From a virus: a stretch of 27,602 nucleotides of DNA. Under the pieces are notes generated by a model that made no database searches, was not told the origin of the DNA, and worked only from the letters and a program-made list of their open reading frames with translations. Both the position numbers and the translations under genes were made by a program. Below are positions 11,416 to 27,602 of the stretch, in pieces. Each line of letters opens with the position of its first letter. Position 1 is the stretch's first letter. Location of the stretch: the IMG/VR virus record IMGVR_UViG_3300043119_000438, positions 1 to 27,602 of that record; one strand, given 5' to 3'.

Positions 11416-11427
11416 TATTCCTCCTTT

Positions 11428-11451: not shown

Positions 11452-11463
11452 TTTGTTATCTTA

Positions 11464-11787: not shown

Positions 11788-11797
11788 AATTTCCTCC

Positions 11798-11857
11798 CTA
11801 ACAAGCTTCTGCAAGCCATGTATAATTTTTGTTTCGTTCTTCGTCATCTTTGTCCAT
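11798..11857 (-). CDS. Very small ORF between ssb and the next gene
   Basis: 19 residues: starts at an ATG with GGAGGG 6 nt upstream and ends 10 nt before the next gene's ATG. Product begins MDKDDEERNKNYTWLAEAC. Either a leader peptide or a decayed gene. Confidence 0.35.
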   Translation of the reverse strand: MDKDDEERNKNYTWLAEAC

Positions 11858-11866
11858 ATTTCCCTC

Positions 11867-13040: not shown

Positions 13041-13044
13041 TCAT

Positions 13045-13794: not shown

Positions 13795-14198
13795 TCGATT
13801 TCCTCCTTGTAAGATTTTGGTTTTTCTTGCCATGCTATAACATTGCATTTGCTTTCTTTGAATGTAATGGATTTTTTATTAAATTTATATTTTCCCCAAC
13901 CTAAACACATATCATAATTCATGATAAAAATATCTTTGCCATCGCTTACAATATATGTATCGTCGTAACTCGGTAATCTCTCTTTACAAGATATCCAACC
14001 ACCATTTAATTGTTTTTCGAGAGTTTCTATTGCTAAATCAAATATTTCTTTAAATTCCAATCCACTTTGTTTTAATTCTTCAAAATTACAACCAACAATT
14101 CCTAAATCTATTGCTTTTTTAATTTCTTCATCTTCTAAGCTTTTATCTAATGTAACTATTGATTGCTTTAATTTTTCTATCGCTTTTTCAATCTCCAT
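13791..14198 (-). CDS. DUF551 protein
   Basis: 135 residues from the ATG at 14198 with GGGGAAAG upstream (a longer in-frame start exists but would overlap the neighbour by more). N-terminal half helical (EKAIEKLKQSIVTLDKSLED, LEFKEIFDLAIETLEKQL). Then the DUF551 motif GGWISCKERLPSYDDTYIVSD with its C-terminal VIAWQEKPKSY. DUF551 is frequent in phages; function unknown. Confidence 0.75.
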   Translation of the reverse strand: MEIEKAIEKLKQSIVTLDKSLEDEEIKKAIDLGIVGCNFEELKQSGLEFKEIFDLAIETLEKQLNGGWISCKERLPSYDDTYIVSDGKDIFIMNYDMCLGWGKYKFNKKSITFKESKCNVIAWQEKPKSYKEEIE

Positions 14199-14310
14199 CT
14201 TTCCCCAACCTTTCATTTTTATATTCTTCAAGTCCAACAATAATGACAATACTCATTCCAGTAGCTCCAAAGATTGAGCCTAGTATAAAAGTTATGATGT
14301 GTGCAATCAT
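14188..14310 (-). CDS. Tiny membrane protein (DUF3789-like)
   Basis: 40 residues. The ATG overlaps the previous stop (ATGA) with AGGAAAA before it, and its end overlaps the DUF551 gene start. One or two membrane segments: MIAHIITFILGSIFGATGMS and IVIIVGL, then a charged tail EEYKNERLGKDGD. This layout is common in Firmicute phage replication operons (DUF3789-type). No role is known. Confidence 0.6.
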   Translation of the reverse strand: MIAHIITFILGSIFGATGMSIVIIVGLEEYKNERLGKDGD

Positions 14311-14744
14311 TGTTGTTTTCCTAGTGCCTTTTCAGCTTCTTCTCGTGTTAGAAATAAATCTTCCATTCTGTGGCTTTCACCAGTTTCAAACCAACTACCA
14401 TTATCTTCATTTTGAAAAGCTAGCATAACCCTAGTTTCATCTTTGTCTATGCAAAAACCGCTAATTTTACAGATATGTGTTTTATTTTTTATATTTATAA
14501 AAACTGTATCTCCAAACTTAAAATGTAATATAATTAACAGTTTTTGCATTTCTAAATCTTCATACTCTTTTAATTGTTCTAAGATTGTATCAACTAATTC
14601 TTTGTTAAATGGTGATATTTCCTCTGGCTCTAATCCTGTAGATTTATAATCTGCCAATTTATTCAAAGCATCTGATAAATTAAAATGATGTTCTCTTAAT
14701 GTTTCTATGGCTCTATCTGTTTTGTTATTAGTTAATTGTTCCAT
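14307..14744 (-). CDS. Conserved phage protein with C-terminal LTREEAEKAL motif
   Basis: 145 residues, GGGAGG 7 nt before the ATG. N-terminal DRAIETLREHHFNLSDALNK and KLADYKSTGLEPEEI is a phrase seen in many phage hypothetical proteins. A beta-type centre (FGDTVFINIKNKTHICKISG) and a terminal LFLTREEAEKAL follow. The function of the family is not known. Confidence 0.65.
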   Translation of the reverse strand: MEQLTNNKTDRAIETLREHHFNLSDALNKLADYKSTGLEPEEISPFNKELVDTILEQLKEYEDLEMQKLLIILHFKFGDTVFINIKNKTHICKISGFCIDKDETRVMLAFQNEDNGSWFETGESHRMEDLFLTREEAEKALGKQQ

Positions 14745-14755
14745 CTTCTACCTCC

Positions 14756-15508
14756 CTAATTCACGTTATAAATAGTTGTTTGAACATTCTTAGCTAACTT
14801 ATTATTAAAATCACTAACAAATTGCTTTACAATTTCAAACCCGTATGATTTCCTCCCCAACTGTTCGGCAGCTAACAAAGTTGTTCCGCTCCCTGCACAT
14901 GGGTCAATTACCACGTCGTTAACATCTGTAAATATGCTTATTAATTTTTTTAGCACTGGTAATGGTTTTTGGTTAGGATGTATTTTCGGAACCGAATTAT
15001 CTTTTTCCCAATGCATCCAATTAAAAATCATTTTTCCGTCATTATTAAATTTTGGTAGCTTGTCTCTATATAAAACAACTGCATGCTCTGTCGCTCCGAC
15101 TATTTTCATATTTGCTTTTAGCACTTGTGGGCTATAATTTTTAATAAAGAACATTGGAAACCCATGATTAAAACCATATCTTTTGCCTGTATCAATCAGC
15201 ATTTGCATTTGGTCGAATGCACAAAATATTATCATTGCTGGTGCTTTGTTTACTTCTTTAGGTTCTTTTATAAGTAACTTGCTACAAAAATGCATATACT
15301 CTACTAGGTTAAAGTTTGAATCACTGTTGAAAAATTGCTTGCCTGCTTTCTTGCTTTCACCTTTTTTGTTATCACCGTCAATATACCATTCCGTTGAACT
15401 GCCATAAGCATTTTTGCCAATGCAATATGGTATATCTGCTATCACTAATTGCGCTTTTGGTATTCCATATTTTTTATAATTTTGGAAATTATCATGATAT
15501 AGCTTCAT
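14756..15508 (-). CDS. DNA methyltransferase, beta class (N6-adenine or N4-cytosine)
   Basis: 250 residues. Motif IV near the N-terminus reads ADIPYCIG (D-I-P-Y instead of D-P-P-Y), and the SAM-binding motif I comes later as DPCAGSGTT, with HPNQKPLPVL before it: the beta-class circular permutation. No restriction partner is adjacent, so it probably protects phage DNA or mimics host modification. The Ile in the catalytic tetrad is a known but less usual variant. Confidence 0.88.
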   Translation of the reverse strand: MKLYHDNFQNYKKYGIPKAQLVIADIPYCIGKNAYGSSTEWYIDGDNKKGESKKAGKQFFNSDSNFNLVEYMHFCSKLLIKEPKEVNKAPAMIIFCAFDQMQMLIDTGKRYGFNHGFPMFFIKNYSPQVLKANMKIVGATEHAVVLYRDKLPKFNNDGKMIFNWMHWEKDNSVPKIHPNQKPLPVLKKLISIFTDVNDVVIDPCAGSGTTLLAAEQLGRKSYGFEIVKQFVSDFNNKLAKNVQTTIYNVN

Positions 15509-15512
15509 ATTG

Positions 15513-15761
15513 TCATCTCTCTTTCTTAAACTGTTCTCTAAGCTCTAACATTTTCTTTCCCATTTTTGCATCTTCTTTATTTTCTATTTCTTCAATCAAA
15601 TTAACATTTCTCATGTTCAAAAGATGTTGACTTCCATCACTCGTAGTTATCAATGCTGTGTCTTGTTCTTGCCTAATTTGACTAACATTCTTAAAATTCC
15701 TTGATGTTGATATAGAATTGAACCAGACTTTTATAATTGCGTTGTTAAATTCTGCTATCAT
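15513..15761 (-). CDS. Small phage protein, unknown function
   Basis: 82 residues, GGAGG 7 nt before the ATG. Starts MIAEFNNAIIKVWFNSI, with DTALITTSDGSQHLLN, then a charged coil ending REQFKKER. A small beta sheet plus helix; no family recognised. 4 nt before the methyltransferase start. Confidence 0.55.
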   Translation of the reverse strand: MIAEFNNAIIKVWFNSISTSRNFKNVSQIRQEQDTALITTSDGSQHLLNMRNVNLIEEIENKEDAKMGKKMLELREQFKKER

Positions 15762-15777
15762 ATAAATTCCTCCACTT

Positions 15778-16137
15778 TTATTTATTTAACCACTTATCCA
15801 TTTTTTCATATAACTTTTTAGCACACTCTTTGCATAATGACATTCCACAGCCGTATTCATCGCAAAAGCTAAATGAAGTTTCTATCCATTCATCAACATA
15901 TTTTCCGCAAGATGAACATTGTTCTTTACCTTCTAATGGATATTTTTTCTTTATTTCTTTAATTGGTTTGCACATTTTATAATAAACATGTTCTAATGGT
16001 GATTCTTTGCTTAACATTGTTTCTTTGCTACATTTATGCGACCAATACGAATTGAACCAACTATCAAATCCGTCTTTAGTATTTTTAATAATAGTTTTGA
16101 GCTTTTTATCTTCGTTATTTACTTTCCATTCAAGCAT
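15778..16137 (-). CDS. Zinc-ribbon phage protein
   Basis: 119 residues from the ATG at 16137 (AGGAGG upstream; the longer frame overlaps the previous gene and lacks a site). The C-terminal half has CSSCGKYVDEW, then FCDEYGCGMSLCKECAKK, giving a likely two-metal ribbon. The N-terminal half is charged. Could bind nucleic acid or protein; no family recognised. Confidence 0.6.
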   Translation of the reverse strand: MLEWKVNNEDKKLKTIIKNTKDGFDSWFNSYWSHKCSKETMLSKESPLEHVYYKMCKPIKEIKKKYPLEGKEQCSSCGKYVDEWIETSFSFCDEYGCGMSLCKECAKKLYEKMDKWLNK

Positions 16138-16147
16138 TTTGCACCTC

Positions 16148-16681
16148 CTAATCCAACAAATAAACTTTAGCCATATGCCTACCAATAGACGGTATATCTT
16201 CTAAGTTCTTTGTATAAATATCCAACTTGTTACCAATTATTGCACTTCCGCTATCCTCTACGGTTCGTATACCAATTCCTTCGATAAACACTCTACTTCC
16301 TACAGGCAATACCGACCAGTCTGATGCGATAGTATAATCCTCTTTCACAGGTTCACCGCTAGCGGTAATACCGTAGTCTTTATCTCCTGGATTCTTGCCT
16401 GTGCTTTCAAAATTCGCTGTGTAATATGTAATTTGAAACTCTCCGATATAATTATTTTCAGATAATAAACTCTTAATTTCCCTAGCATCTTCCAAAGCAT
16501 ATTTCAAAGCCATATTTTCGATTTTAAGCTTGTCAAGGTTCGTTGTGGTGTAAATATACCTTGTCGTGCTTTTTGTTTCTTCTTGACATGTCCCATAAGC
16601 TGTGATAACAAATATTGTAAGTATTAAAAGCCACGAAATTATTATTGTTAGAATTATGTTTCTTTGTCGTTTATTTTTCAT
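16148..16681 (-). CDS. 3D-domain exported/membrane-anchored protein
   Basis: 177 residues. Basic start then a membrane segment at about residues 9-29, a helical spacer (45-75), and a double-psi beta-barrel 3D domain (about 78-177). Its three aspartate motifs are TIASDWSVLPVGSRVFIEGI, TVEDSGSAIIGNKLDIY and, within the latter, the LD of LDIY. Related domains occur in cell-wall lytic or RlpA/MltA-like proteins. Exporting a wall-active domain from the replication operon, between methyltransferase and loader genes, is unusual; it may act at the host surface. Confidence 0.82.
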   Translation of the reverse strand: MKNKRQRNIILTIIISWLLILTIFVITAYGTCQEETKSTTRYIYTTTNLDKLKIENMALKYALEDAREIKSLLSENNYIGEFQITYYTANFESTGKNPGDKDYGITASGEPVKEDYTIASDWSVLPVGSRVFIEGIGIRTVEDSGSAIIGNKLDIYTKNLEDIPSIGRHMAKVYLLD

Positions 16682-17460
16682 TAGTTACCTCCATCAATCT
16701 TTAACCGATAATTATTCTTAATATTCTTGTCAATCTCTACAAGATAATCCTTGCACATTTCATATATCCTAGAGCCAATAGCTTCATCAAAATTCAATAA
16801 ATCGTTCATGTCGTGTTCGCTAGATAAGATAATCGGCAATTTGTTCATGTATCGGTAATTGATAATCTCAAACATGATGTTTTTATCACTATCCGTTGTC
16901 TTACCTTTCAACATATCGTCTATTAGCAATACTTTTGCATTTCTGTATTTGTCTAGTTGCTTTTGATAATATTCTTCATCGGTCATGTTTTGCTTTAAGT
17001 TTGTAATCACATCTCTATAACTGAAATAAGCAACTGACATTTTCCTTTTCTGCAAAAGACTTAATCCTAAGGCTATTGTTAAATGACTCTTGCCTGCTCC
17101 AACTTGTCCAATAAATGCTATACTATTTTGCTTAGTGTTTTTAATTTTCATAAAGTTTTTATAATATGCCAATCCAACGTTTTTCATCAACTTTGAAGTC
17201 TCGTTCCATTCTTCAAAATTTGTGAATGTGAACTTATCATCTTTGATTCCGCTATTTTCAAACATTTTCTCTGCTTCTGCTATCTCGAAACATTCGCATC
17301 TTTTGCAGTTATTATTATCGTCCATTATCCAGTATGTATCTTTGCATTTAGGACATTTATATAAGTCCAAGTTCTGCGATTTCTTCATCAAGCGATTTTC
17401 CGCTACTCTCTGTTTTAATCTTTGGAACGTCAAATTTAATTCTGTTTCCGTACTTTCCAT
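16681..17460 (-). CDS. dnaC: DnaC-type helicase loader ATPase
   Basis: 259 residues from the ATG at 17460. CPKCKDTYWIM with later CKRC forms a zinc ribbon (about 36-60). AAA+ core: Walker A GQVGAGKSH, Walker B AKVLLIDDM, sensor-type LPIILSSEHD and an arginine-containing SRIYEMC. Loads the host replicative helicase at the site opened by the organizer. It overlaps the organizer gene by 104 nt in another frame; a later start at 17388 would shorten this to 32 nt, but has no better ribosome site. Confidence 0.9.
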   Translation of the reverse strand: MESTETELNLTFQRLKQRVAENRLMKKSQNLDLYKCPKCKDTYWIMDDNNNCKRCECFEIAEAEKMFENSGIKDDKFTFTNFEEWNETSKLMKNVGLAYYKNFMKIKNTKQNSIAFIGQVGAGKSHLTIALGLSLLQKRKMSVAYFSYRDVITNLKQNMTDEEYYQKQLDKYRNAKVLLIDDMLKGKTTDSDKNIMFEIINYRYMNKLPIILSSEHDMNDLLNFDEAIGSRIYEMCKDYLVEIDKNIKNNYRLKIDGGN

Positions 17461-18181
17461 TGCTTTCACCGCCTTTTTTATCCTTACTAGCCCATTTGGT
17501 TATTGCTAGATAATGATTTTTATACTTATATCCTTTAAGCTCAATGCCTTCTGATAATGTATTTATCCAATATTCCCATTTACAAGGAAACTTTTCTTTG
17601 AGTTGTTCTAATTGTTTGTCAGTAAGTAAAACATTTTTGTATTCACCATATTTATGTTTTTTATTAATATCTATTTCTTTATCTTTATCTATTTCTTTAT
17701 CTATTTCTTTATCTATATCTTTATCTAGCGAGCTAACATTAGCTTTACTGTTAGTTTTACTGTTAGTTTTACAATCCTCTTTACCCTCTGCGATTAGCTT
17801 TTGTTTTTCTCTATATTCTTGCATATAGGTTCGCATATACTCTTTTTTATTTTCCAACTGGTCTAACGTTTGATGTTTGCTCCAATTCGGAATTGTTATT
17901 GCATTATTTATCACTTCAATCATTCCAAATTTTTCAAAAGTACTAATTGCTAATCTTACTGTGTTTATAGGTCTCCTAAATATTGTTGCAAGCATTTCAT
18001 CCGTATATGGTAATTTGTCATTAAATAATAAAACTCCACCATTATTAATTTTTCCCGCTAATGTCAATAATTTGAACCATATTACAATCATTGCATCTGA
18101 TTCGGGCATGCTCTCCACTAACAATATTTTTTCATCATCGAATATATCTGTTACAATTTTAATCCATTTAACATCTGCCAT
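17357..18181 (-). CDS. Phage replisome organizer
   Basis: 274 residues from the ATG at 18181 (GAGGTG upstream, overlapping the previous stop as TAATG). N-terminal winged helix (about 1-115) with VKWIKIVTDIFDDEKILLVE, TDEMLATIFRRPINTVRLAI and MIEVINNAITIPNW: the phage replisome-organizer N-domain. A Lys/Glu/Asp repeat linker (about 152-173) joins a C-terminal domain (LTDKQLEQLKEKFPCKWEYW). Binds the phage origin and hands the helicase-loader complex to it; the dnaC gene follows. Confidence 0.85.
   Translation of the reverse strand: MADVKWIKIVTDIFDDEKILLVESMPESDAMIVIWFKLLTLAGKINNGGVLLFNDKLPYTDEMLATIFRRPINTVRLAISTFEKFGMIEVINNAITIPNWSKHQTLDQLENKKEYMRTYMQEYREKQKLIAEGKEDCKTNSKTNSKANVSSLDKDIDKEIDKEIDKDKEIDINKKHKYGEYKNVLLTDKQLEQLKEKFPCKWEYWINTLSEGIELKGYKYKNHYLAITKWASKDKKGGESNGKYGNRIKFDVPKIKTESSGKSLDEEIAELGLI
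17668..17727. repeat. Short tandem repeats coding a charged linker
   Basis: Repeats of a 12-bp unit (CTATTTCTTTAT and variants) encode DIDKEIDKEIDKDKEID in the organizer linker; next to it are KTNS repeats (17741-17770). Replication slippage could change linker length without a frame shift where units are multiples of three. Confidence 0.8.
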
Positions 18182-18669
18182 TATTTTTTTATCACCTCTT
18201 GCTTGTGTAATTGCACGTGACATTGTTTACAAAGCGTTATTCCATTATCAATGTTATATCTTTCGTTTTCATATTCTGAAAACTTTTTAATATGATGTGC
18301 TTCAAGATTTAAATTACTTCCGCATTTTTTACAGACATAATTATCTCTTTTGAGAACACTTTCTCGCCATTGTCTATATTTGTAAGTTAGCCTTTTCTTT
18401 GCTATTTCTGCTCTTCCGATTACAATATCCCAATTTTTTATTTCGTATATTCCACTATCGTTAATATCAATGAATTTAGACTTTATTAGTGAATCTATAT
18501 CATTTTTATTGCAACCTAGCATTTTGCAAATAGACCTTAAATTATTTAATAAACCCTTTTCATTTGCTCTAATTACTAGATGAAAATATAATGCTTGTGT
18601 CGATAGAGGCATATCTAAAAATGCGTCACTATCTATTATTGTTTTTGCAAACATTCTTTTCTCTGCCAA
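18181..18669 (-). CDS. Organizer N-domain fused to an HNH endonuclease
   Basis: 162 residues from a TTG start with GAAGGTGAG before it. Residues 1-90: MAEKRMFAKTIIDSDAFLDM, LSTQALYFHLVIRANEKGLL, CKMLGCNKNDIDSLIK: the winged-helix domain of a replisome organizer. Residues 95-157: WRESVLKRDNYVCKKCGSN, LEAHHIKKFSEYENERYN, GITLCKQCHVQLH: a complete HNH with two CxxC zinc ligand pairs. The normal C-terminal part of the organizer is replaced. Possibly an endonuclease aimed at the origin by its winged helix. The next gene is a complete organizer. Confidence 0.85.
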   Translation of the reverse strand: MAEKRMFAKTIIDSDAFLDMPLSTQALYFHLVIRANEKGLLNNLRSICKMLGCNKNDIDSLIKSKFIDINDSGIYEIKNWDIVIGRAEIAKKRLTYKYRQWRESVLKRDNYVCKKCGSNLNLEAHHIKKFSEYENERYNIDNGITLCKQCHVQLHKQEVIKK

Positions 18670-18673
18670 TTTC

Positions 18674-19117
18674 TCACCTTCTTGCGTTATTAATTACCGC
18701 ATTTGCTGTTGGATCACTATTGCTCTTGTTAGAAAATTCATTTTCATAACTACCGTAAATATTTTTAATAATTTTTTCTTCGATAGCTATACTTTCTTTT
18801 GATTTTTGTCTTGCGATATCTTTAATCTTGTCAAGTTTTTCTTCTGTTATTAAATTGTTATATAATAAATAACTAATTAATTCACAATTGATATTTCTTT
18901 CTTCAAGACTTTTTTCTTGTATAATTGTTTGTCGATGCTGAATTTGTGTAACCATTTTTTTCAATTGTGAAGCTTTTTGAGCGTAGATATTTTTATGATA
19001 ACCTTTAGCTTTTAACGCTTTTGTATTATACTCGTTCATTTCATCAAGCATATTTTCTAGTAATTCTTCTTCGACCATTAAAGTTGTGCCGCACTTTTTA
19101 CATTTGATTAATCTCAT
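18674..19117 (-). CDS. Zinc-ribbon, coiled-coil phage protein
   Basis: 147 residues, AAAGGAG 7 nt before the ATG. LIKCKKCGTTLMVEE gives a single CxxC at the N-terminus; the rest is helical, with AQKASQLKKMVTQIQHRQTI and an Asn/Ser-rich tail. May form a dimer. Unknown function. Confidence 0.6.
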   Translation of the reverse strand: MRLIKCKKCGTTLMVEEELLENMLDEMNEYNTKALKAKGYHKNIYAQKASQLKKMVTQIQHRQTIIQEKSLEERNINCELISYLLYNNLITEEKLDKIKDIARQKSKESIAIEEKIIKNIYGSYENEFSNKSNSDPTANAVINNARR

Positions 19118-19148
19118 TCTTATTCTCCTTTCATTTGGTGTTAATCAA

Positions 19149-19164
19149 AGGGGATTTCTCCCCT
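19149..19164 (-). terminator. Weak hairpin after the exonuclease gene
   Basis: AGGGGA and TCCCCT pair around a 4-nt loop, followed by TTTG only. It overlaps the exonuclease stop. More likely a partial terminator or mRNA end-stabiliser than a full stop. Confidence 0.35.
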
Positions 19165-20128
19165 ATAAATCAAGCCAATAAATAGGCTCTGTAATTTGTT
19201 TTATACTCTTGCAATAATCGCATACACCGCAACCTATAGGCTCTGCTGTACCCTCTTTAAGTTCTTTAACTCTTAAAATATGTGGCTTGATTTCTTCAAG
19301 AGTTGTTTTTACAAAATCCTCAAGACTATTTTCATCTTCTGTCTCGAATGTTATTAACGCTTTGTCTGGAACATCTTCTTTGCTAGCAGCTATAATATTC
19401 GGTGTAAAATATTCACCTAAATTCTGTTTGATTATTTCACAATAAATAGCCATCTGCCAATCATAATGCCAAGCTAAAATAAAATTAACTTTTCTTTTGT
19501 AGTCATCGGACCAAGTTTTATCAGAAATATTTCTCATGAATTTCAAGTCTGCAAAATATTTCTTCTCTTTGTTCAATAAGTCAACCTTAATTTTTATTGG
19601 TAGACCGAATATATCGCCTGTGAAGATAAATTCTTTCTCACATTGAGTGATAATACTATAGATAGCCTTGTCGTTCTTTAAAACGTCGATTACGGTGTCA
19701 CAAATTTGAAATGAAGCTTTAAGTCCACCAGCATTTTTTCCTTTAGAAGCCATTATCTCTGGATGCTCTTCAATAAACTTTTGAAGAGTTCCTTCGCTCC
19801 ATGCGTGGATATAGCTACCTTGCAACATTGCTTCTGACGATTCTTCCTTTTGATATTTTCCTTCAAGAATAGCCATTTCTCTAGCTTCACATTCAATAAA
19901 TGCTTTTAGTTGAGAGGAACCGCTATATAAGCGATTCATCTCTGGACTAAAATAATTATCATCTGTTGGTATTGGCAATGTATTAATATTCATTTTTGAA
20001 GGTTCTGCTTTGTCAATTTCTATAGGCTTGTTTTTGCCATATAAATTATTTTCTTTGCAAAAATTATCAAAACATCTATCTGCCAATGATGGCTCTATTG
20101 TTAAATCAGTAAATTTAATATTATTCAT
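19163..20128 (-). CDS. PD-(D/E)XK exonuclease (RecE/YqaJ type)
   Basis: 321 residues. Motif blocks: LYSGSSQLKAFIECEAREM, AMLQGSYIHAWSEG (motif I region), then the core IKVDLLNKEKKYFADLKF (D...D-x-K) and AWHYDWQMAIYCEI with the motif III Q. The C-terminus has CGVCDYC, a cysteine cluster like the iron-sulfur or zinc staple of related nucleases. Chews one strand so RecT can anneal the exposed ssDNA. Overlaps the recT end by 8 nt. Confidence 0.85.
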   Translation of the reverse strand: MNNIKFTDLTIEPSLADRCFDNFCKENNLYGKNKPIEIDKAEPSKMNINTLPIPTDDNYFSPEMNRLYSGSSQLKAFIECEAREMAILEGKYQKEESSEAMLQGSYIHAWSEGTLQKFIEEHPEIMASKGKNAGGLKASFQICDTVIDVLKNDKAIYSIITQCEKEFIFTGDIFGLPIKIKVDLLNKEKKYFADLKFMRNISDKTWSDDYKRKVNFILAWHYDWQMAIYCEIIKQNLGEYFTPNIIAASKEDVPDKALITFETEDENSLEDFVKTTLEEIKPHILRVKELKEGTAEPIGCGVCDYCKSIKQITEPIYWLDL

Positions 20129-20930
20129 TTTCTGATTCCTCTTTTAAGCAATCTGGTAAATCATCGTCTAACTCTGGATTTACTTCATCGACTATAGAAT
20201 ATTCCACGTCCTCAACTTCTTTTTCTGTTAAAATATTTTTAGCCTTAGATTTTGTTTCTTTAACTTCACTATCTCCACCATCATCAAAAGCTTTTTTTTG
20301 TTCTATATTGTCAAAGTCTAATGAAATATTTTTACACAATCTCCTTAAAACTGTTTTCTTGTACATTTCGCCCGTACTCTTTACCCAGCTTGTACCATTT
20401 GGCATTTTAGAATAATCTTTCCTAGTCTTTTCGATTTCTGCCTTACTCATAGTTTCATAAATCATGCTTCCGTCTTGATAATAACAAACTGCAAAGGCTC
20501 CGATTATTTCACCATCATTAAATGCCATAGGTTTAAAACTTATAATTTGTTGACCGTCTTTTATTTCTTCTACAAACTCATCATTCTCACGTACAAGCTT
20601 TGCATATATATCTTTAATAGGATTGATTGAATACTTTTTAGCAAGCTTTATTTCGCCTTTGTAATCGGTCTGAAACTGTAAGCTGTTTCCATAAGGAATT
20701 GCATAACATTCTTTATTTAGGAAATCTAAACCGAGAAATGCACCTTTTAACATTGTTCTTGCTACTGATAGAGCATTGCACTTTTCTATACCTTTTGTAT
20801 CTTGCAATACTGTAATTGAGTTTTGTAAAAACCTAGTTTTGTTAAAATCTTGCGGTAATGCATCAGCCTTGCTTTCTAAAAGTGTGTTTAAATTTGAATG
20901 TACGCTTTTTAAAATTAAATCATTAGCCAT
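20121..20930 (-). CDS. recT: RecT-family single-strand annealing protein
   Basis: 269 residues. Core RecT blocks: LSVARTMLKGAFLGLDFLNK, ECYAIPYGNSLQFQTDYKGE, PNGTSWVKSTGEMYKKTVLR, with an acidic C-terminal tail (PELDDDLPDCLKEESENE). Anneals complementary ssDNA after the exonuclease. Together with the exonuclease, ATPase and SSB it makes a complete phage recombination set. Confidence 0.95.
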   Translation of the reverse strand: MANDLILKSVHSNLNTLLESKADALPQDFNKTRFLQNSITVLQDTKGIEKCNALSVARTMLKGAFLGLDFLNKECYAIPYGNSLQFQTDYKGEIKLAKKYSINPIKDIYAKLVRENDEFVEEIKDGQQIISFKPMAFNDGEIIGAFAVCYYQDGSMIYETMSKAEIEKTRKDYSKMPNGTSWVKSTGEMYKKTVLRRLCKNISLDFDNIEQKKAFDDGGDSEVKETKSKAKNILTEKEVEDVEYSIVDEVNPELDDDLPDCLKEESENE

Positions 20931-22592
20931 TTATATTTCCTCCCCAAATTTGTTTTCAATCTCAAAACCTTCTGTATCTTGATATTTAGTAACCGTCATA
21001 AAAGTTTGAATATCGTTGCTCTCACAAATTTCAATAACTTTCTTTTGCATATCTTCATCTAAATTTTGGAATCCATCAAGACACATTACTCTAAGTTCGC
21101 CCATTCTTTGTAAAGCAATTTTGAAAGCTGCATCTAATTTTTCGCCGTCTGAAAGACCATCTAATAAAGTGCCATTAATACGAATTAATCCGTTTTCATC
21201 AACTGATATACCGTCAAGTGGAAGTTCGTGTATTTTTAATAGCTCTGATGGCTTCTCGCGTGCTATCGTGATTAGTCTAGTCAAATAGTCTGCATGACCT
21301 TTCTTTGTAGCAAGTTCACCATCACGAATGAATAACATTCTGTCCCAATCCCTTAAATATCCTTGCATCTCAACGACTTTTTCAGCTTCTATTTTTAGTG
21401 GCTCAATGTCTATTTCCTCATTGTTTTCAAGATATTCAGAAGCTTTTCCAATTCTTTGCTTTTCAAGTTCAATTAGCTGTAATGTATTTTTTTCAATGGA
21501 TTCTTTTTCAAGTTCTTTCTTTTCGTCAAGTGTTGATATTTCTTGCTCTTTTACAGCTATTTTTTGTTGCTGCTGTTTGATTTCTTCTTTGCTTTGCTGT
21601 TCTGCTTTTGTTGTTTCTCTTTTAGCTGTCTCTTTTAATTCAATGTAATTTGCTTTTAGCCTTGCAATATCTTTTTCTAGCTGATTATCATAATCTTTTA
21701 GCTGATTCTCTAAAAGAGTTCCTAAACCTTCTATTTTGCTGTTTTCCTTTTCAATCTTCTGTTTTGATAGTTCTATAAGGTCCTTTAAATCTTGTTTTAA
21801 TTCGCTATATTTGACGTCTAATCTAGCCTTTTTAGCTTCTTCATCAGCTTTAATTGAATTGACTTTATTATCAAAATTTTCTTTCAAATTTTTTGCTTCG
21901 GTAATAAATTTATTAACTCTTTCAGCATCAGAAACTTTGTTGTAATACTCTTGAATTTTCTTATCCTTCCACTCGTTTCCGTTATAATTGTCTGGAAGTC
22001 CTCTTTCAATATTTTTAACTTGTATGTCAAGATTTTTAATATCTCTATTTACTTCTTCACGCTCTTTATAAAACTTGTTTTCAACGTCTTTTAAGACTTG
22101 CAACATATGCTTGTCTGTATTTATTCCACTTAGAACATCTTTATCGTCTAAAAACCATTTAACTATTTCCTCTGCTGAATAATTCATCTTTATCATGCTT
22201 AAAATGATGTTGGTTTGTTCTTTAGCTGTTAGATTAATGAAGTCTAACGGTCTAAAAACATCACCTTTTATAAATTTTCTAAGCTCTGATTCTGTAGATT
22301 TTATACCTTCACCTTGTTTTCTAAGTTTGAAATAATCCGATTTATCATTTCTTAGTTTTCTTTCAATTTCTAACCCGTCATCAGTTTCAATAAACAAGGT
22401 AGCTTCATTTTCTCCGTGACTTATTAGTTCAGTTCTTCTTCCTGTGTTGTTAAATGCCTTTTCTATGCCCTCTAGCACGCTTGTTTTTCCGCTTCCTGTT
22501 TTACCTTTTAGTATGTTTAATTTTGGATCTGCATCATAATTAAATTCTTTTACACCTATAAAGTTTTTGATTTTAATATTTTTAATTTTCAT
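20931..22592 (-). CDS. SMC/Rad50-like AAA ATPase
   Basis: 553 residues. KIKNIKIKNFIGVKEFNYD, then Walker A GKTGSGKTS (residues 30-38). A long coiled coil occupies about residues 165-400. C-terminal ABC signature GLSDGEKLDAAFKIAL and Walker B VMCLDGFQNLDED. The glutamate after the Walker B Asp is Gly here (LDG). The globular-coil-globular plan is that of SbcC/Rad50/RecF relatives. Placed right before recT, it likely aids phage recombination; no SbcD-type nuclease is adjacent. Confidence 0.85.
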   Translation of the reverse strand: MKIKNIKIKNFIGVKEFNYDADPKLNILKGKTGSGKTSVLEGIEKAFNNTGRRTELISHGENEATLFIETDDGLEIERKLRNDKSDYFKLRKQGEGIKSTESELRKFIKGDVFRPLDFINLTAKEQTNIILSMIKMNYSAEEIVKWFLDDKDVLSGINTDKHMLQVLKDVENKFYKEREEVNRDIKNLDIQVKNIERGLPDNYNGNEWKDKKIQEYYNKVSDAERVNKFITEAKNLKENFDNKVNSIKADEEAKKARLDVKYSELKQDLKDLIELSKQKIEKENSKIEGLGTLLENQLKDYDNQLEKDIARLKANYIELKETAKRETTKAEQQSKEEIKQQQQKIAVKEQEISTLDEKKELEKESIEKNTLQLIELEKQRIGKASEYLENNEEIDIEPLKIEAEKVVEMQGYLRDWDRMLFIRDGELATKKGHADYLTRLITIAREKPSELLKIHELPLDGISVDENGLIRINGTLLDGLSDGEKLDAAFKIALQRMGELRVMCLDGFQNLDEDMQKKVIEICESNDIQTFMTVTKYQDTEGFEIENKFGEEI

Positions 22593-22955
22593 CTATTTCC
22601 CTCCAAATAAAAAATTATATAAAGATTCGTTATTATCTTCCTGTATCTCAACAACTTCTGTTGCCAACTGTTCAACTAAAGACAAATATTCTTCATGAGT
22701 TAAATCAATTTGTTGTTTTACATATCCCTTTTCATCAACCGTTGCTATTTTGTGGCTTATTACTGTATTTAACATTGGTTTTTCATCTTTGATAAGTTCG
22801 CATTCTTCTTCACAAATCCACCATGATTCGTTGTTGTTTTTTGCTCTATAACCATTACCCTTATTTGTTTTTTCGATTGTAACAATTTCTCCTATTTTAA
22901 AACCATGTGCATTTATATCGCCTGTAATCCTTACTTTATCGCCTACTTTTAACAT
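22593..22955 (-). CDS. Phage protein with SH3/KOW-like N-terminus
   Basis: 120 residues. N-terminal MLKVGDKVRITGDINAHGFK, then GEIVTIEKTNKGNGYRAK and WWICEEECELI look like an SH3-type barrel; the C-terminal half is a helix ending NFLFGGK. No enzyme motif. It joins the ATPase gene without a gap. Confidence 0.6.
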   Translation of the reverse strand: MLKVGDKVRITGDINAHGFKIGEIVTIEKTNKGNGYRAKNNNESWWICEEECELIKDEKPMLNTVISHKIATVDEKGYVKQQIDLTHEEYLSLVEQLATEVVEIQEDNNESLYNFLFGGK

Positions 22956-22958
22956 TAA

Positions 22959-23501
22959 CTATTCACCTCTCAATTCTTTTAATAATGATATATTTATAGT
23001 TGACATTACCTCATTTTTTACAACATTTGTTTCTGGTATCTTAAATCCTAGTTCTTTCAAATATTCAGTAGCCTGTGCGCCTGTCATTGAAGAAATATTA
23101 CCTTTTAACTTTGTATATTCGTTTCTTATTTGCTCTCTTTGTGCTTCGTATTTAACTGTCGGTTTATCTGACATGTACGATTTTTTATTTAACGTTTTTA
23201 AAATATCTTTTTCCAATCCACCTCTATTTAGCAATGATTCTAAATAATATGTCGCTTGTCTAGTGTATGAATTGTAATACGAATAACTATCGCTTTTTTC
23301 AAAATACATATCTATTTGTTTTAGCTCTTTTAGTAATGTTTTTATTTCAATTTCAAGTTCCTTGACATCTAACCCTTTCAATGATTCGATTACTATTTTT
23401 TCTTTTAGTTTTTCAACTTCTCTATTTCTGATGTTGCGTATATTTTCAATCGTTGTTTCTTCCTCTGATTCAAGAAATTTCTTTATTTGAATTTTATTCA
23501 T
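22959..23501 (-). CDS. Coiled-coil phage protein, unknown function
   Basis: 180 residues. N-terminal heptads (TIENIRNIRNREVEKLKEK, ELEIEIKTLLKELKQID), a tyrosine-rich centre (SYSYYNSYTRQATYYLESLL), and a C-terminal MTGAQATEYLKELGFKIPE. The upstream gene is 13 nt away. No family recognised. Confidence 0.6.
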   Translation of the reverse strand: MNKIQIKKFLESEEETTIENIRNIRNREVEKLKEKIVIESLKGLDVKELEIEIKTLLKELKQIDMYFEKSDSYSYYNSYTRQATYYLESLLNRGGLEKDILKTLNKKSYMSDKPTVKYEAQREQIRNEYTKLKGNISSMTGAQATEYLKELGFKIPETNVVKNEVMSTINISLLKELRGE

Positions 23502-23514
23502 TTATATTTCCTCC

Positions 23515-23772
23515 CTAAAATTTATCAAATGTTGGTTTTGTTGTTATTCTCTCAAACTTATTATCTTCTATTTCTATCTTTGCATCTTTAGTTCCCAAGT
23601 GATGAATCCATATAGGTATATATCCATGTCCTTTGCTGTTGCAACTTTCAACTTCTCTACCACTTGCGATTAGTTCCTTAATCAGTTCGTTTGCCAAATA
23701 ACCTATTTTTTCATCTGAATTCAGCCTTTTAATTTTTATATCAATTTTCCATTTCCAAAATTTAAATTTCAT
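23515..23772 (-). CDS. Small phage protein, unknown function
   Basis: 85 residues starting MKFKFWKWKIDIKIKRLN (an amphipathic, Trp-rich strand), then SDEKIGYLANELIKELIASG and a beta tail (IEIEDNKFERITTKPTF). Overlaps the previous gene by 4 nt. Not recognised. Confidence 0.55.
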   Translation of the reverse strand: MKFKFWKWKIDIKIKRLNSDEKIGYLANELIKELIASGREVESCNSKGHGYIPIWIHHLGTKDAKIEIEDNKFERITTKPTFDKF

Positions 23773-24206
23773 ATTATTTCCTCCCTCAAAAACTCAATCC
23801 AATTTTCCATATCATCTAAAATATAATTTTTAAGATGTTCTAGTTGTTTATTACTATCTCCATCTAAATCAACCTTACTTAAAAAGTCTTTCTCTAAAAC
23901 TTCTATCAAGTCACTTTCCAACTCTTTATCAACGTTTCCTATGCCCCATATCTCTAAGAAATATTCTTTGTGCTTGTCCAACCATTTAAGCCCTAGTCTG
24001 TCTGTATATTCCTTCTCAGCACACTTGTAACATATATTGTTATGTATTTGTTCCTCAAAGTAATATCTTTCGCATAAATCGCATTTGTAGGCTTCTTCGT
24101 AGCCTGTGCTATTACAACCAGGACAAACATTTAATAATTCGCCTGTATCATCTTTAATTGTTTCTACTTGATTAAATATTGTTTCACAATCTCTGCAGCT
24201 ATACAT
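23769..24206 (-). CDS. Phage protein with two zinc ribbons
   Basis: 145 residues. MYSCRDCETIFNQ with CPGCNSTG, then CDLCERYYFEEQIHNNICYKC, give four CxxC pairs and two zinc sites. The C-terminal half (EIWGIGNVDKELESDLIEVL) is helical. A nucleic-acid- or protein-binding adaptor by appearance; no enzyme motif. Confidence 0.65.
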   Translation of the reverse strand: MYSCRDCETIFNQVETIKDDTGELLNVCPGCNSTGYEEAYKCDLCERYYFEEQIHNNICYKCAEKEYTDRLGLKWLDKHKEYFLEIWGIGNVDKELESDLIEVLEKDFLSKVDLDGDSNKQLEHLKNYILDDMENWIEFLREEII

Positions 24207-24723
24207 TTTTAGCCTCCTTTTTAGTTCGTTTCAATGGTTGTTTGCTATTAGATTTAAGTTTTCTATATTTTCTCCAAGTTGCAATATTGGAACTTGATGT
24301 ATTTGTTAATTTAGCAATTTGACTATCAACAAAACCTTGATTATATAGATCCATTCGTATTTTATTTTTCTTCTCAATTTCAATAGTTCTAGTTGATGGA
24401 TTGGCTTCTAAATTATTCTTTTCTCTCCAATATCTAACACTTGAATCTTGCGAACCCTCTATCTTTGCTATATCGCCATCAGATAAACCTTGATTGTATA
24501 ATTTCAATCTGCTTTCGTGTGAATATTCTCTTTGCCATTTTTTAGCGTTTCCGTATTTCTTTTCTAAAATTTTGTCTGCTAGTTTATTTAATTTTTCATC
24601 GGCTTTTTTATTATCTGGGAGAACTTCATCTAGTTTTAATATGCTTACTAACTCATCTTTTGTTAATTCACCATCTGCTGCTATCATTCTTCTGTAGTCG
24701 TTTATAAAATTTTGTAGTGACAT
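24199..24723 (-). CDS. Protein with duplicated helix-turn-helix
   Basis: 174 residues. After a helical N-terminus there are two copies of a 35-residue unit: RLKLYNQGLSDGDIAKIEG followed by SVRYWREKNNL, and RMDLYNQGFVDSQIAKLTN followed by NIATWRKYRKL. Each has the pattern YNQGxxDxxIAK, a homeodomain/Hin-like HTH. The C-terminus is very basic. Probably binds a DNA repeat. Confidence 0.7.
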   Translation of the reverse strand: MSLQNFINDYRRMIAADGELTKDELVSILKLDEVLPDNKKADEKLNKLADKILEKKYGNAKKWQREYSHESRLKLYNQGLSDGDIAKIEGSQDSSVRYWREKNNLEANPSTRTIEIEKKNKIRMDLYNQGFVDSQIAKLTNTSSSNIATWRKYRKLKSNSKQPLKRTKKEAKNV

Positions 24724-24724
24724 T

Positions 24725-25282
24725 TCATTCGTTCACCTCGTTTGTAAATATTTCTCTGTTTAAATAGACAGGTTGATAGTCATTTCTTACCGGTAACATC
24801 ATCAACATTTCTTCGCTATTTTCATGTGTGACATATATAGGTCGAGTAGGAATATTGCCATATATTTGTACTGGTGAAAATTCGTTTATAAAACTCATAA
24901 AAGTTCTATCCATATAAACATAATTTTTAGATGCTTTTAGAATCTGCAAATCTTTATCGCTGTGAATTTGCGTTAATCTTGTATCCGTCAACACTTCTGC
25001 ATCTTTTGGAAGTTCCAACAATCCAATGAAATTATTTATTTGTTCTTCTGTCATTACTTCTAATCTACCGTCAAATTTAAGCGCGAATCCTGTTCCGATG
25101 TCTGGTATTGTCTTAAATAAATTTATTAAAGGGACGAAGATCCATTTTTCTACATGTAAAGTTTTCTTTGTTCTAAGTCCAAAATATCCTGTAAATAAAT
25201 AGTTAAATTCCTCTGTCCTAAACCAAAATATTTGAGTTGACTTCCCTTTTAAGTATTTGCTTATATTTTTAAAATTTATCAT
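24725..25282 (-). CDS. Phage protein, unknown function
   Basis: 185 residues with AGGAGA before the ATG. Mixed alpha/beta; notable stretches are KIPDIGTGFALKFDG-like (TIPDIGTGFALKFDG), EEQINNFIGLLELPKDAEV and LPVRNDYQPVYLNREIF near the end. No catalytic or binding motif recognised. The gap to the gene before it is 65 nt and carries the plus-strand promoter at 25303. Confidence 0.6.
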   Translation of the reverse strand: MINFKNISKYLKGKSTQIFWFRTEEFNYLFTGYFGLRTKKTLHVEKWIFVPLINLFKTIPDIGTGFALKFDGRLEVMTEEQINNFIGLLELPKDAEVLTDTRLTQIHSDKDLQILKASKNYVYMDRTFMSFINEFSPVQIYGNIPTRPIYVTHENSEEMLMMLPVRNDYQPVYLNREIFTNEVNE

Positions 25283-25302
25283 ATGAAATCTCCTTTATTT
25301 TT

Positions 25303-25331
25303 TTGACATATCTGTTTTAATGTGCTATAAT
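25303..25331 (+). promoter_or_regulatory. Perfect consensus promoter on the opposite strand
   Basis: TTGACA (25303-25308), exactly 17 nt, TATAAT (25326-25331). It faces against the early operon. All twelve hexamer bases match consensus. Confidence 0.8.
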
Positions 25332-25337
25332 TCTGTT

Positions 25338-25390
25338 TGAATGTTTTTTATTGACCGTTCCTATTGGCGTAGGCGGTCTTTTTTCTTTTT
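25338..25390 (+). ncRNA. Candidate short antisense RNA
   Basis: Starts about 7 nt after the consensus -10 box and ends at a strong terminator: GACCG-TT-CCTA / TAGG-CGGTC (5 plus 4 bp, loop TTGGCG), then TTTTTTCTTTTT (25379-25390). It would be roughly 50 nt, antisense to the 3' end of the zinc-finger gene at 25348-25485. A reading frame in it (ATG at 25341) runs past the terminator and has no ribosome site. Confidence 0.55.
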
Positions 25391-25485
25391 ACGCAATCTG
25401 GACAAATGTAGTGTTTCCTGTACCTCTCTTTCTTTTGTGAACTAATGCCCCAAGTTGTGTGACATTGAATACATTTTAGTTTCAT
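25348..25485 (-). CDS. 45-residue zinc-finger protein
   Basis: ATG at 25485 preceded by GAGGTAAACA. Sequence: MKLKCIQCHTTWGISSQ, then YICPDCVKRKKTAYANRN. Two CxxC pairs (residues 5/8 and 28/31) make one zinc site; the C-terminus is basic. Overlaps the end of the gene at 25442-25639 by 44 nt. Its last codons coincide with the antisense terminator hairpin. Confidence 0.65.
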   Translation of the reverse strand: MKLKCIQCHTTWGISSQKKERYRKHYICPDCVKRKKTAYANRNGQ

Positions 25486-25639
25486 TGTTTACCTCACTTT
25501 CTGGCACTTCTTCGTCCCAACATTTTTTACATCTTTTGTTTCCACAATTTGTTGTCAAGTTAAATTCAATGTCTCTACATTTTGCAGTTTCAAAATCTTT
25601 GTTCGGATTCTGTTTAATCCATAGTTCTTTGTATGTCAT
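25442..25639 (-). CDS. Small cysteine-rich phage protein
   Basis: 65 residues; ATG at 25639 after GTGAGGTTGACA. Starts MTYKELWIKQNPNKDF and has CRDIEFNLTTNCGNKRCKKCWDEEVPE: cysteines in a C...C-x4-C-x2-C pattern and a W after the last one. Similar LWxKxNP...CKKCW proteins occur in many phages; function unknown. Confidence 0.65.
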   Translation of the reverse strand: MTYKELWIKQNPNKDFETAKCRDIEFNLTTNCGNKRCKKCWDEEVPESEVNNETKMYSMSHNLGH

Positions 25640-25844
25640 TGTCAACCTCACTTTCTAACTTGATTTTTAAAAACTTAATACCTTTAATCTTTCCGTTGGC
25701 ATTCCTATTAATTGCCGACGATATATTATTTTCTTTAACTCCTGTAAGCTTGCTTAATTCTCTTAAATTTCCAGCAACTGCAAATGGCAACTCATATGCA
25801 TCTGGACTTACTGCTAAATATAAAGTGTTCGCTCTGCTACTCAT
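25614..25844 (-). CDS. Small HTH-like protein
   Basis: 76 residues. ATG at 25844, overlapping the previous stop (ATGAGTAG), with AAGGAG 10 nt upstream; an ATG three codons before is too close to the ribosome site. After a beta start (TLYLAVSPDAYELPFAVA) comes NLRELSKLTGVKENNISSAI, a helix-turn-helix-like helix pair, and a basic C-terminus. Possibly DNA-binding. Confidence 0.6.
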   Translation of the reverse strand: MSSRANTLYLAVSPDAYELPFAVAGNLRELSKLTGVKENNISSAINRNANGKIKGIKFLKIKLESEVDNDIQRTMD

Positions 25845-25998
25845 TTTCTCCATACTCCTTACAACTAATTGCAAATCTATTCTTGTCCCACTCGCTAGGT
25901 GTTGTTTCTTGCTTGTCCTCGAATGCGCTGCAAGATGGTTTATCTTTGCAATTTGTACATCTTCTTTTTTCTGCTTCTTGGGATTGTATGTAGTTCAT
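25837..25998 (-). CDS. 53-residue cysteine-containing phage protein
   Basis: ATG at 25998 with AGGAGGTACCCA before it. Sequence begins MNYIQSQEAEKRRCTNCKDK and continues PSCSAFEDKQETTPSEWDKN; cysteines at residues 14, 17, 23 and 46 (CxxC-x5-C...C). Too short to place in a family. Overlaps the next gene start by 8 nt, which supports both. Confidence 0.6.
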   Translation of the reverse strand: MNYIQSQEAEKRRCTNCKDKPSCSAFEDKQETTPSEWDKNRFAISCKEYGENE

Positions 25999-26008
25999 TG
26001 GGTACCTC

Positions 26009-26878
26009 CTATTTAATATTTTTAAATATGTGTGCTATTACATCTACTGTCCAACCATCACCAACAGTTGAATATCTTTCTGTATCGCTTATCCCATATG
26101 TATAATTATCTGGTAAAGTTTGAAGTCTTTCGTATTCCAATGGAATTAACTTTCTACATTTTCCGTCTTGAAAAACTTTCTTTTGAAGATTTCCACCTCT
26201 GCAAGTTGTCAATGTATTACACTTTCCGTTGAGATTATAAACTTCTTTCATATGTCTATGACCTTTCATTTCAAGAGTACATTGAACCTTTTTATCATAA
26301 CCATGAAATATAAAATCTTTGGAGTACCAGTATTTTTCAGGAATTTCATCAGCGTTCAAAACAATGTCCTTTAACATTATTTTTTTATCTATAGGTTGTG
26401 TTACATTTGGAATATTAGTCCAATATAATCTTCTCCTGTCTGCAGCACTAACCAAGTTAGAATTTATTTCTATTGGCTCAACTCCTAAAAAATTTGTTAT
26501 TTCATTTTTCCATATATCTTGCATAGGAACATTCTCTAATAAAAAATATTCTGGTTTTAGTCGTTCCAAAGCATCTACGTAATAATAAAATAAACTGCTT
26601 TTTTTACCATTTAATCCCTTTACATCATTTCTATCGAATTTATATACACTTAAATCTTGGCAAGGGCTTCCTCCAATTAACAAATTTATATCTTTTAATG
26701 AGGATATATCTAATTTTGTGATATCACCTAATTGAATTGTGTTTTTATAATTTTTTTGAGTGATACTTATAGCATATTTGTTAATTTCGCTTGCATAATA
26801 CTTATCTACTTTAATCCCAGCTCTTTCAAGTGCTACTTGACCGCATGAAATGCCATCAAATAAACTTAATACATTCAT
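26009..26878 (-). CDS. DNA (cytosine-5) methyltransferase
   Basis: 289 residues with the C5 motif order: MNVLSLFDGISCGQVALERA (SAM site), GGSPCQDLS with catalytic Cys, FLLENVP, SAADRRRLYW, a target-recognition region, then KLIPLEYERLQTLPDNYT and VGDGWTVDVIAHI. Short, like the monospecific phage enzymes. No restriction enzyme is adjacent, so it probably guards phage DNA or serves regulation. Second methyltransferase in the operon after the one at 14756-15508. Confidence 0.93.
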   Translation of the reverse strand: MNVLSLFDGISCGQVALERAGIKVDKYYASEINKYAISITQKNYKNTIQLGDITKLDISSLKDINLLIGGSPCQDLSVYKFDRNDVKGLNGKKSSLFYYYVDALERLKPEYFLLENVPMQDIWKNEITNFLGVEPIEINSNLVSAADRRRLYWTNIPNVTQPIDKKIMLKDIVLNADEIPEKYWYSKDFIFHGYDKKVQCTLEMKGHRHMKEVYNLNGKCNTLTTCRGGNLQKKVFQDGKCRKLIPLEYERLQTLPDNYTYGISDTERYSTVGDGWTVDVIAHIFKNIK

Positions 26879-26994
26879 CTACTTTTCCTCCTACTCTCGA
26901 CCAAACAATAACCACCTAGCCAGAGTACGCAATTTATTAAAAATCCTTGAACTAGTAGGGTTATTGGCTGGCTGTGATTTAATAAAAAGTTCAT
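26875..26994 (-). CDS. Tiny membrane protein
   Basis: 39 residues; start overlaps the previous stop (ATGA) and the end overlaps the methyltransferase ATG; GGAAGGTG upstream. Segment PITLLVQGFLINCVLWLGGY spans a membrane once; tail ESRRKSR is basic, so the C-terminus is likely cytoplasmic. Unknown role. Confidence 0.5.
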   Translation of the reverse strand: MNFLLNHSQPITLLVQGFLINCVLWLGGYCLVESRRKSR

Positions 26995-27332
26995 ATCTTT
27001 GCACCTTCCATATTTTCTATAGCAATCCGCATAAGTGCTATCAAATCTCCGTTTGTAAACTTTTCATCAATAATTATGCTTATACCATATCGCTCTTTGA
27101 TTCTTTCTTCTAAGACGGGATATTCATTTAACAATGATTCTTTTGCATGTCTGATTGCTCTTTCTACTCTGCTTGCTTTAGTATCGTGTTTTTCTGCTAT
27201 CGCTGAATATACGTCCATCATCTTTGTGTTAGGCTTGTACAATTCGATAGCTGTTGATATGTATTCAAAGCCTTTTGTTGATGGTTTAATGCCTATGTAG
27301 AGTAGTTCTTTTTGTATCTGTTGTTTGTTCAT
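26991..27332 (-). CDS. Stand-alone Spo0A C-terminal (DNA-binding) domain protein
   Basis: 113 residues, AGGAGG 6 nt before the ATG. KELLYIGIKPSTKGFEYISTA, then MMDVYSAIAEKHDTKASRVE followed by RAIRHAKESLL, match the Spo0A effector domain, including its SRVERAIRHA recognition helix. The receiver domain with its phospho-Asp is absent. Spo0A controls entry into sporulation by binding 0A boxes. A phage copy without receiver could bind the same sites without phosphorylation and alter host sporulation, or be a private phage regulator. Confidence 0.88.
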   Translation of the reverse strand: MNKQQIQKELLYIGIKPSTKGFEYISTAIELYKPNTKMMDVYSAIAEKHDTKASRVERAIRHAKESLLNEYPVLEERIKERYGISIIIDEKFTNGDLIALMRIAIENMEGAKI

Positions 27333-27341
27333 GGTTTCCTC

Positions 27342-27602
27342 CTAAATATTAATTTGATTATTACACTGTTTAATTTCGCAATTTAACGCAAAAGGTGTCT
27401 TATATTCACTAATCATTTTTAAAGCGATGTCGGTTTGATTTCTCTTGATTGCTTTGTAACTTGTTACCGCAAATTCTCTTTTAAGTTGTCTATGTATGTC
27501 TGAATAAATTTTGCCTCTAATAGATTTATCATTGTACGCTTTAGCATCTTTACCGCCTAAACACTCGACACCTTTTTTCTTTACTGAGTAAGTTATCTTG
27601 TC
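27342..27602 (-). CDS. ORF6C-like C-terminal part of a phage antirepressor (runs off the right edge)
   Basis: The last 86 residues of a gene whose start is beyond 27602. AKAYNDKSIRGKIYSDIHRQ followed by LKREFAVTSYKAIKR and IALKMISEYKTPFAL resemble the ORF6C domain at the C-terminus of phage antirepressors and Rha/BRO-like regulators. The N-terminal domain is not seen. It ends 9 nt before the Spo0A-like gene. Family call is moderate. Confidence 0.6.
   Translation of the reverse strand, partial: DKITYSVKKKGVECLGGKDAKAYNDKSIRGKIYSDIHRQLKREFAVTSYKAIKRNQTDIALKMISEYKTPFALNCEIKQCNNQINI

Follow-up and report, generated by a model that had tools for sequence, protein, structure and literature searches.

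A putative OOP-like antisense RNA encoded by a temperate clostridial phage within its early operon, and a family of similarly built units with a hypervariable hairpin loop

Introduction

The OOP RNA of bacteriophage lambda is made from its own promoter within the early operon, on the cI strand. It ends at a hairpin, and its antisense target is the last part of the preceding gene plus the gap that follows. With another group of antisense RNAs, P1/P7 c4 RNA and the plasmid copy-number RNAs R1 CopA and ColE1 RNA I, a variable hairpin loop is the determinant of recognition and incompatibility. OOP acts on cII as an antisense RNA through RNase III (PMC12197685), and the references given in PMC5869508 include work on the RNase III-dependent loss of cII mRNA. 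Phage P22 has sar, a small antisense RNA at an early-operon junction that controls the level of the antirepressor, while STnc6030 of Salmonella phage BTP1 is an antisense RNA of superinfection exclusion for which escape mutations cluster in the paired region (both PMC12197685).

Here we describe a unit of this kind in a stretch of viral DNA of 27,602 nucleotides (positions 1 to 27,602 of IMG/VR record IMGVR_UViG_3300043119_000438; hereafter "the window"). Like lambda OOP (pO-tO), the unit has its own promoter and terminator and lies antisense in a temperate early operon, on the cI strand; like P22 sar, its predicted product is a small antisense RNA at an early-operon junction. We consider, with moderate confidence, that positions 25303–25390 form a small, complete gene for an antisense RNA, embedded in the early operon of a clostridial phage that is temperate, and that the RNA most likely acts like OOP.

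Results

A promoter-terminator unit antisense to the early operon

The plus strand of the window contains, at 25303–25331, a promoter of the sigma-70/sigma-A type, TTGACA-17-TATAAT, with its −35 box at 25303–25308, its −10 box at 25326–25331, a 17-bp spacer and a TG at 25323–25324, the extended −10 being TGTGCTATAAT (25321–25331, +). This was the only perfect TTGACA-17-TATAAT in the whole window, and a promoter scan of 7700–27602 found the 12/12 match to be unique on both strands. The promoter is followed by a hairpin at 25353–25378 (+), GACCG-TT-CCTA-(TTGGCG)-TAGG-CGGTC, with arms GACCG at 25353–25357 and CGGTC at 25374–25378 (MFE −11.3 kcal/mol on folding, z about −2.2), and then by the T tract T6CT5 (TTTTTTCTTTTT, 25379–25390, +). 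A simple terminator scan did not list this hairpin because its stem is bulged. With the 5' end set 7 nt past the −10 box and the 3' end within the T tract, the predicted RNA measures about 48–53 nt (25338–25390, +).

These elements agree with the preliminary description, which had reported a mismatch-free promoter on the plus strand, a hairpin with T6CT5 behind it, a gap in this part of the operon and an antisense position relative to the 3' end of a zinc-finger gene. The gap extends from 25283 to 25347, between two minus-strand genes. The one of which the 3' end lies under the predicted RNA (25348–25485, −) encodes a 45-residue, Cys-rich, zinc-finger-like protein with a weak match to DUF7836 (E 4.9e-5, below the Pfam cut-off). 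The next gene downstream in the operon (24725–25282, −) is an ORF of 185 codons, for which phages, viral contigs, genome contigs and 71 genomes of the bacterial family of Metaclostridioides mangenotii contained no relative other than the identical protein of the contig described below. Its ribosome site (complement of 25287–25293) is directly upstream of the antisense promoter and outside the RNA.

Prophage-borne antisense antitoxins are known in Clostridioides difficile (PMC7699646), and the RNA might accordingly be the antitoxin of a type I toxin-antitoxin pair. The opposed 45-residue product is, however, highly charged as well as Cys-rich and is devoid of a hydrophobic segment, its gene sits in an operon rather than standing alone as a toxin gene, and no small hydrophobic toxin ORF faces the RNA. 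On the character of the protein we reject this explanation, to which we attach practically no credence.

To estimate what chance would yield, we shuffled the whole window 300 times, keeping its dinucleotide composition. Perfect promoters were found at a mean of 0.08 per shuffle (0.003 with the TG), and the relaxed unit, TGnTATAAT plus a terminator, at a mean of 0.01, compared with 1 observed. A perfect promoter with a terminator within 75 nt was encountered in none of the 300 shuffles. The unit is therefore real, a chance origin being very unlikely.

The rightmost 7.6 kb of the window is 100% identical to IMG/VR contig IMGVR_UViG_3300043037_000042 (59,439 bp), and from the aligned coordinates we took the window as positions 10754–38355 of this contig, with the unit at 36056. 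To the right of the window, the plus strand of the contig encodes a tyrosine integrase and a repressor (CI) in which an HTH part is combined with a Peptidase S24 part; the minus strand encodes a Cro-like protein and a BRO/ORF6C antirepressor. The minus strand of the window encodes a Spo0A-C-like protein, a DNA methylase, small genes, an AAA ATPase, RecT, an exonuclease, DnaD/DnaC-like proteins, a dUTPase and the small subunit of terminase. The phage carrying the window is a clostridial one and, by its gene content, temperate. Since CI and the integrase are on the plus strand and the early operon is on the minus strand, the unit is antisense in the early operon and points in the direction of lysogeny, which upholds the earlier placement of the unit inside the early operon of a lysogenic phage.

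The early-operon protein at 26991–27332 (−) has a Spo0A C-terminal DNA-binding domain (Pfam E 1.6e-14) and is a possible link to host sporulation. The phage also contains a transposase gene (phrog_2331, E 5e-156; window 7467–8690, −) and an ORF of 423 codons running against the general gene direction (window 5048–6319, +), without PHROG match.

Palindromes resembling CI operators (GTTRCGNNNYGYAAC) are confined to the cI/cro region. Those at L006:19330–19344 and 19657–19671 flank the cro-like gene and are likely the CI/Cro operators of the window's phage. No CI-operator-like site was found at the antisense promoter of the window, and control of this promoter by a CI operator was rejected for want of such a site; its lack is compatible with activity of the promoter in the lysogen. 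A second perfect TTGACA-17-TATAAT is present on the window's contig (L006:18834–18862, +), opposing the early operon, directly upstream of the BRO antirepressor gene and divergent from it; downstream of it is an ORF of 55 codons (L006:18881–19048) without Pfam match.

The antisense promoter also contains a 13-nt direct repeat (TCTGTTTNAATGT), unmentioned earlier, of which the two copies are 21 bp (two helical turns) apart. Copy 1 (TCTGTTTTAATGT, 25311–25323, +) is in the promoter spacer and is a candidate operator half, while copy 2 (TCTGTTTGAATGT, 25332–25344, +) overlies the inferred start site. No further exact copies were found in the 59-kb contig. The repeat is a candidate operator and hints at some regulator of the promoter; a role as replication origin or iteron was judged unlikely, as there are just two copies in 59 kb.

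Similarly built units in clostridial phages

Exact or loose DNA patterns for the window's promoter and repeats, as well as a DNA pattern for its hairpin, matched solely in the identical 59-kb contig, where the unit has the same sequence. Comparison of the window unit's DNA with the 71 genomes mentioned above yielded short A/T-rich chance matches alone.

A search with RecT led to two M. mangenotii prophages (60% identity), both of which have an antisense extended −10 and a terminator directly upstream of the recT module. The hairpins of the two prophages differ (GAGTCG-TTGGAG-CGGCTC versus GAGCCA-TTGCCG-TGGCTC), pairing being kept while the overlapping codons are changed. A search of the same bacterial family revealed more distant copies in two genomes (G011 and G008), where the DNA match covers little more than the unit itself. 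By genome, the members of the family are found in G008, G009, G011–G014, G025, G026, G055 and G061; the hosts are Peptostreptococcaceae prophages and C. difficile phages, the latter comprising phiC2, phiCD27, CD1801 and phiCD418, in which the unit adjoins Gp157 and Erf, or Bet, genes. The architecture is conserved: in every member inspected, the downstream gene's start and ribosome site come first, followed by the antisense extended −10, the RNA and, last, the end of the upstream gene. The predicted RNA lies antisense to the gap as well as to the tail of that gene, its terminator has the form GAGCC-loop-GGCTC, and several members have an upstream gene ending ...VQI-stop right before the hairpin.

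To define the family, we used a covariance model (R1) made from the family sequences with the window left out. At E ≤ 0.001 it identified 16 elements in 11 of the 71 genomes of the bacterial family of M. mangenotii, and the same 11 genomes when applied to 394 genomes of the order. In IMG/VR, a search pattern was matched by 76 contigs; the model gave 59 of these a score of 48.9–86.8 bits. The family stem covaries; all six pairs are formed in every sequence (100% paired), and the closing pair is A-U, G-C or U-A.

With the 4227 covariance models of Rfam, the window gave a tRNA alone at the gathering threshold, and the family loci together with L001 gave no match at E ≤ 1. None of the papers searched dealt with this RNA family; a study of C. 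difficile 630 mentions antisense start sites in prophage genes in general terms (PMC3649979). The antisense units of clostridial phages thus appear to be an undescribed RNA family.

Three further observations concern these phages. In many members, including L026, L028, L064, L066 and L067, the palindrome TATAGCTATA or a similar one is found right behind the −10 box; it differs from the window's direct repeat and is possibly an operator or start-site element. A family unit is next to Gp157 genes on five C. difficile plasmid records (NZ_CP149728, NZ_CP149717, NZ_CP149718, NZ_CP149725 and NZ_CP149754), probably extrachromosomal phages, three of which contain the phiC2 allele at 100%. Finally, a second kind of antisense promoter-terminator is present in C. 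difficile phage contigs (L077:9620–9692 (−), L079:2750–2822 and L113:3344–3416; 33 bits with the model). Its sequence is TATGTTATAAT ... GGAGTG-TGAAAG-CACTCC-TTTTC, right before a gene of which the ribosome site, GGAGTGTGAAAG, repeats the hairpin sequence. In the sense mRNA, the hairpin could pair with GGAGTGTGAAAG and so hide the ribosome site.

How does the window unit compare with the family? The window has the family's extended −10 (TGTGNTATAAT), facing the early operon from the other strand; its TGTGCTATAAT at 25321–25331 is identical to that of L026, L028, L064 and phiC2. Also shared are the geometry (ribosome site, antisense promoter, RNA and 3' end of the upstream gene), the sequence TTTTTTATTGA before the hairpin and the T tract, and the window loop, TTGGCG, is the loop core of L050. 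The family hairpin, TTTTGAATTGAGCC-loop-GGCTCTTTTC, is absent from the window, which has the similar TTTTTTATTGACCGTTCCTATTGGCGTAGGCGGTCTTTTTTC with different arms, and the flanking genes are not those of the family. The covariance model gave a weak match to the window unit (22.1 bits, E = 0.55 over 80 kb), in which the register was kept over the −10 box and the hairpin was unaligned; the unit ranked first within the window, the runner-up scoring 20.8 bits. Looser patterns revealed no intermediates between the window unit and the family: two of the matches (L150 and L151) lacked a terminator and a third (L153) was judged a probable chance match. The window unit is built like the family and is possibly a divergent member of it. 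As to the conservation in related phages raised in the preliminary description, the architecture recurs in other clostridial phages, but the exact unit was found elsewhere only in the identical contig.

That the window unit is represented in the collections by a single sequence would suit a chance arrangement or a relic, in other words an idle promoter and terminator such as a cargo (moron) unit that has lost its gene, and the second perfect promoter at L006:18834 (+) does drive a small ORF in a similar place. We find this improbable in view of the absence of the unit from all 300 shuffles and of the recurrence of the same layout in many phages.

The promoter is among the best-conserved parts of the unit across relatives, and it adjoins or overlaps the ribosome site of the next gene. 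Both facts would also suit an antisense promoter with a built-in brake, where what matters is the loading of polymerase or transcription through the junction (by interference, or by activation or DNA opening) and the RNA is a by-product. For lambda, a contribution of the pO promoter itself to the control of DNA replication, independent of the RNA, has been reported (PMC12197685). Against this, no replication origin was identified and the DnaD/DnaC-like genes of the window are about 7 kb away; moreover, the conserved GAGCC/GGCTC stem and the hypervariable loop described below would be left unexplained. We regard this explanation as rather unlikely and retain the OOP-like antisense RNA as the preferred one.

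The hairpin loop is hypervariable and has inverted alleles

Among closely related family members, the hairpin loop differs far more than its surroundings. In 13 disjoint pairs, picked by flank similarity alone and thus blind to the loop, as a guard against double counting and module exchange, 20 of 104 loop positions differed (19.2%), compared with 234 of 6306 flank positions (3.7%; P = 2.8e-9). When all pairs were taken, which are not independent, the values were 42.9% for the loop and 5.6% for the flanks, so that the loop diverges about five to eight times as much as its surroundings. Terminator-like hairpins used as controls from the same loci showed no such effect (5.2% in loops and 5.1% in flanks, the pairs again not being independent). 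Individual pairs illustrate this. L081 and L116 agree in the compared flanks and have the loops ATTGCCGT and ATTGCTGT; L057 and L080, which are 99.7% identical over 300 nt on one side, have TCACCCTA and TCGCTATA; and L099 and L111, with flanks of 97.7% and 94.9% identity, have ACGGCAAT and TCGCTATA.

Some loop alleles are the reverse complement of one another. Three such pairs were found (ACGGCAAT/ATTGCCGT, ACTGCAAT/ATTGCAGT and TCTGCAAA/TTTGCAGA) against 0.03 expected with shuffled loops, which points to flipping of the loop between the stem arms. A recent inversion in place is something that we infer rather than observe, because the best inverted pairs have diverged in one or both flanks. 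Some of the large loop differences fall together with an exchange of modules on one side, and part of the loop exchange accompanies module exchange because the hairpin sits at a recombination joint.

A stand-alone promoter and terminator, as in other prophage small RNAs, could equally belong to a trans-acting RNA of which the targets are mRNAs of the host or of other phages rather than the phage's own operon, and STnc6030, with its escape mutations in the antisense target, provides a precedent from superinfection exclusion (PMC12197685). Yet the family unit is antisense at the same early-operon junction in every member inspected, and a loop that differs between near-identical phages would be surprising if the target were a fixed one in the host. 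We therefore give this possibility a low probability and keep to antisense control of the phage's own early operon as the preferred reading.

Of six genomes with two contigs, two share a loop allele, both being C. difficile genomes with two prophage contigs. A simple incompatibility of equal loops within one genome was discarded on these grounds; the loop is no absolute bar to co-residence.

Discussion

The likeness of the window unit to OOP is one of design. We reject OOP by descent, since the opposed gene is not cII and the neighbor is not O/ori, and neither the window unit nor the clostridial family has any sequence relation to OOP. OOP opposes cII and is next to O/ori, whereas the window RNA would oppose the gene for the 45-residue Cys-rich protein, with the 185-codon gene as the next one. 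In the clostridial phages the RNA would be directed at a Cys-rich gene or at small genes that precede recombination genes, and the hypervariable loop with its inverted alleles belongs to the clostridial family. Sar of P22 belongs to another phage group and has another target; in the window's phage the antirepressor gene lies about 2 kb or more upstream in the early operon and is not opposed by the RNA. STnc6030 is a prophage antisense RNA, as proposed for the clostridial family, but faces the tailspike gene, whereas the RNA of the window or the family faces the early operon. With P1/P7 c4, CopA and RNA I, the family would share the logic of recognition through a variable loop, with the difference that co-resident clostridial prophage contigs with equal loops exist.

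How would an OOP-like RNA act here? The promoter, strong and on the lysogeny strand, would produce an RNA of ~50 nt ending at the hairpin terminator. This RNA would be complementary over its whole length to early mRNA at a single junction, covering the 3' end of the 45-codon gene and the gap, with the next ribosome site excluded. Its hairpin loop would contact the complementary sequence on the early mRNA, upon which the duplex might be cut, or translation or elongation disturbed at the junction, and low-level early transcripts would be silenced or trimmed. Polymerases that start at the antisense promoter may interfere as well. Such a design, a short RNA matching the junction with a stable hairpin and a fast-evolving loop, fits antisense control through loop contact, of the sort seen in the copy control of plasmids and, judged by geometry, in lambda OOP. 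From the DNA we infer transcription, pairing and repression, as well as a function of the window copy shared with the family.

The fast evolution of the loop suggests a self-recognition switch. The loop would be the point of recognition, and a phage that altered it, also by inversion, would escape the RNA made by a related prophage. In cis, RNA and target would change together, so that a loop change would be free at home and would alter recognition by and of other phages. Inversion would turn a loop sequence into its own complement, and pairing with the former partner would be lost in one step. We propose a role in compatibility or immunity because a change or inversion of the loop would be costless in cis and yet alter recognition between phages. 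Tentatively, and with clear reservations, we picture a family of antisense RNAs of ~55–65 nt with the loop as an allelic, partly invertible tag. The RNA of a prophage would silence an incoming phage with the same loop, which could escape by loop mutation, swap or flip, and this would constitute a second, protein-free immunity on top of CI, the window unit being a divergent version.

Lambda and P22 provide the best-known antisense RNAs of phage early operons, and the units described here would be a widespread equivalent in phages of Peptostreptococcaceae, including those of C. difficile. The larger result is the family with its hypervariable loop and inverted alleles. If the loop is a recognition tag, these phages would possess a compact immunity or compatibility system made of RNA only, which could be tested by swapping a few bases, and phiC2, phiCD27 and similar phages would offer ready natural sets of loop alleles.
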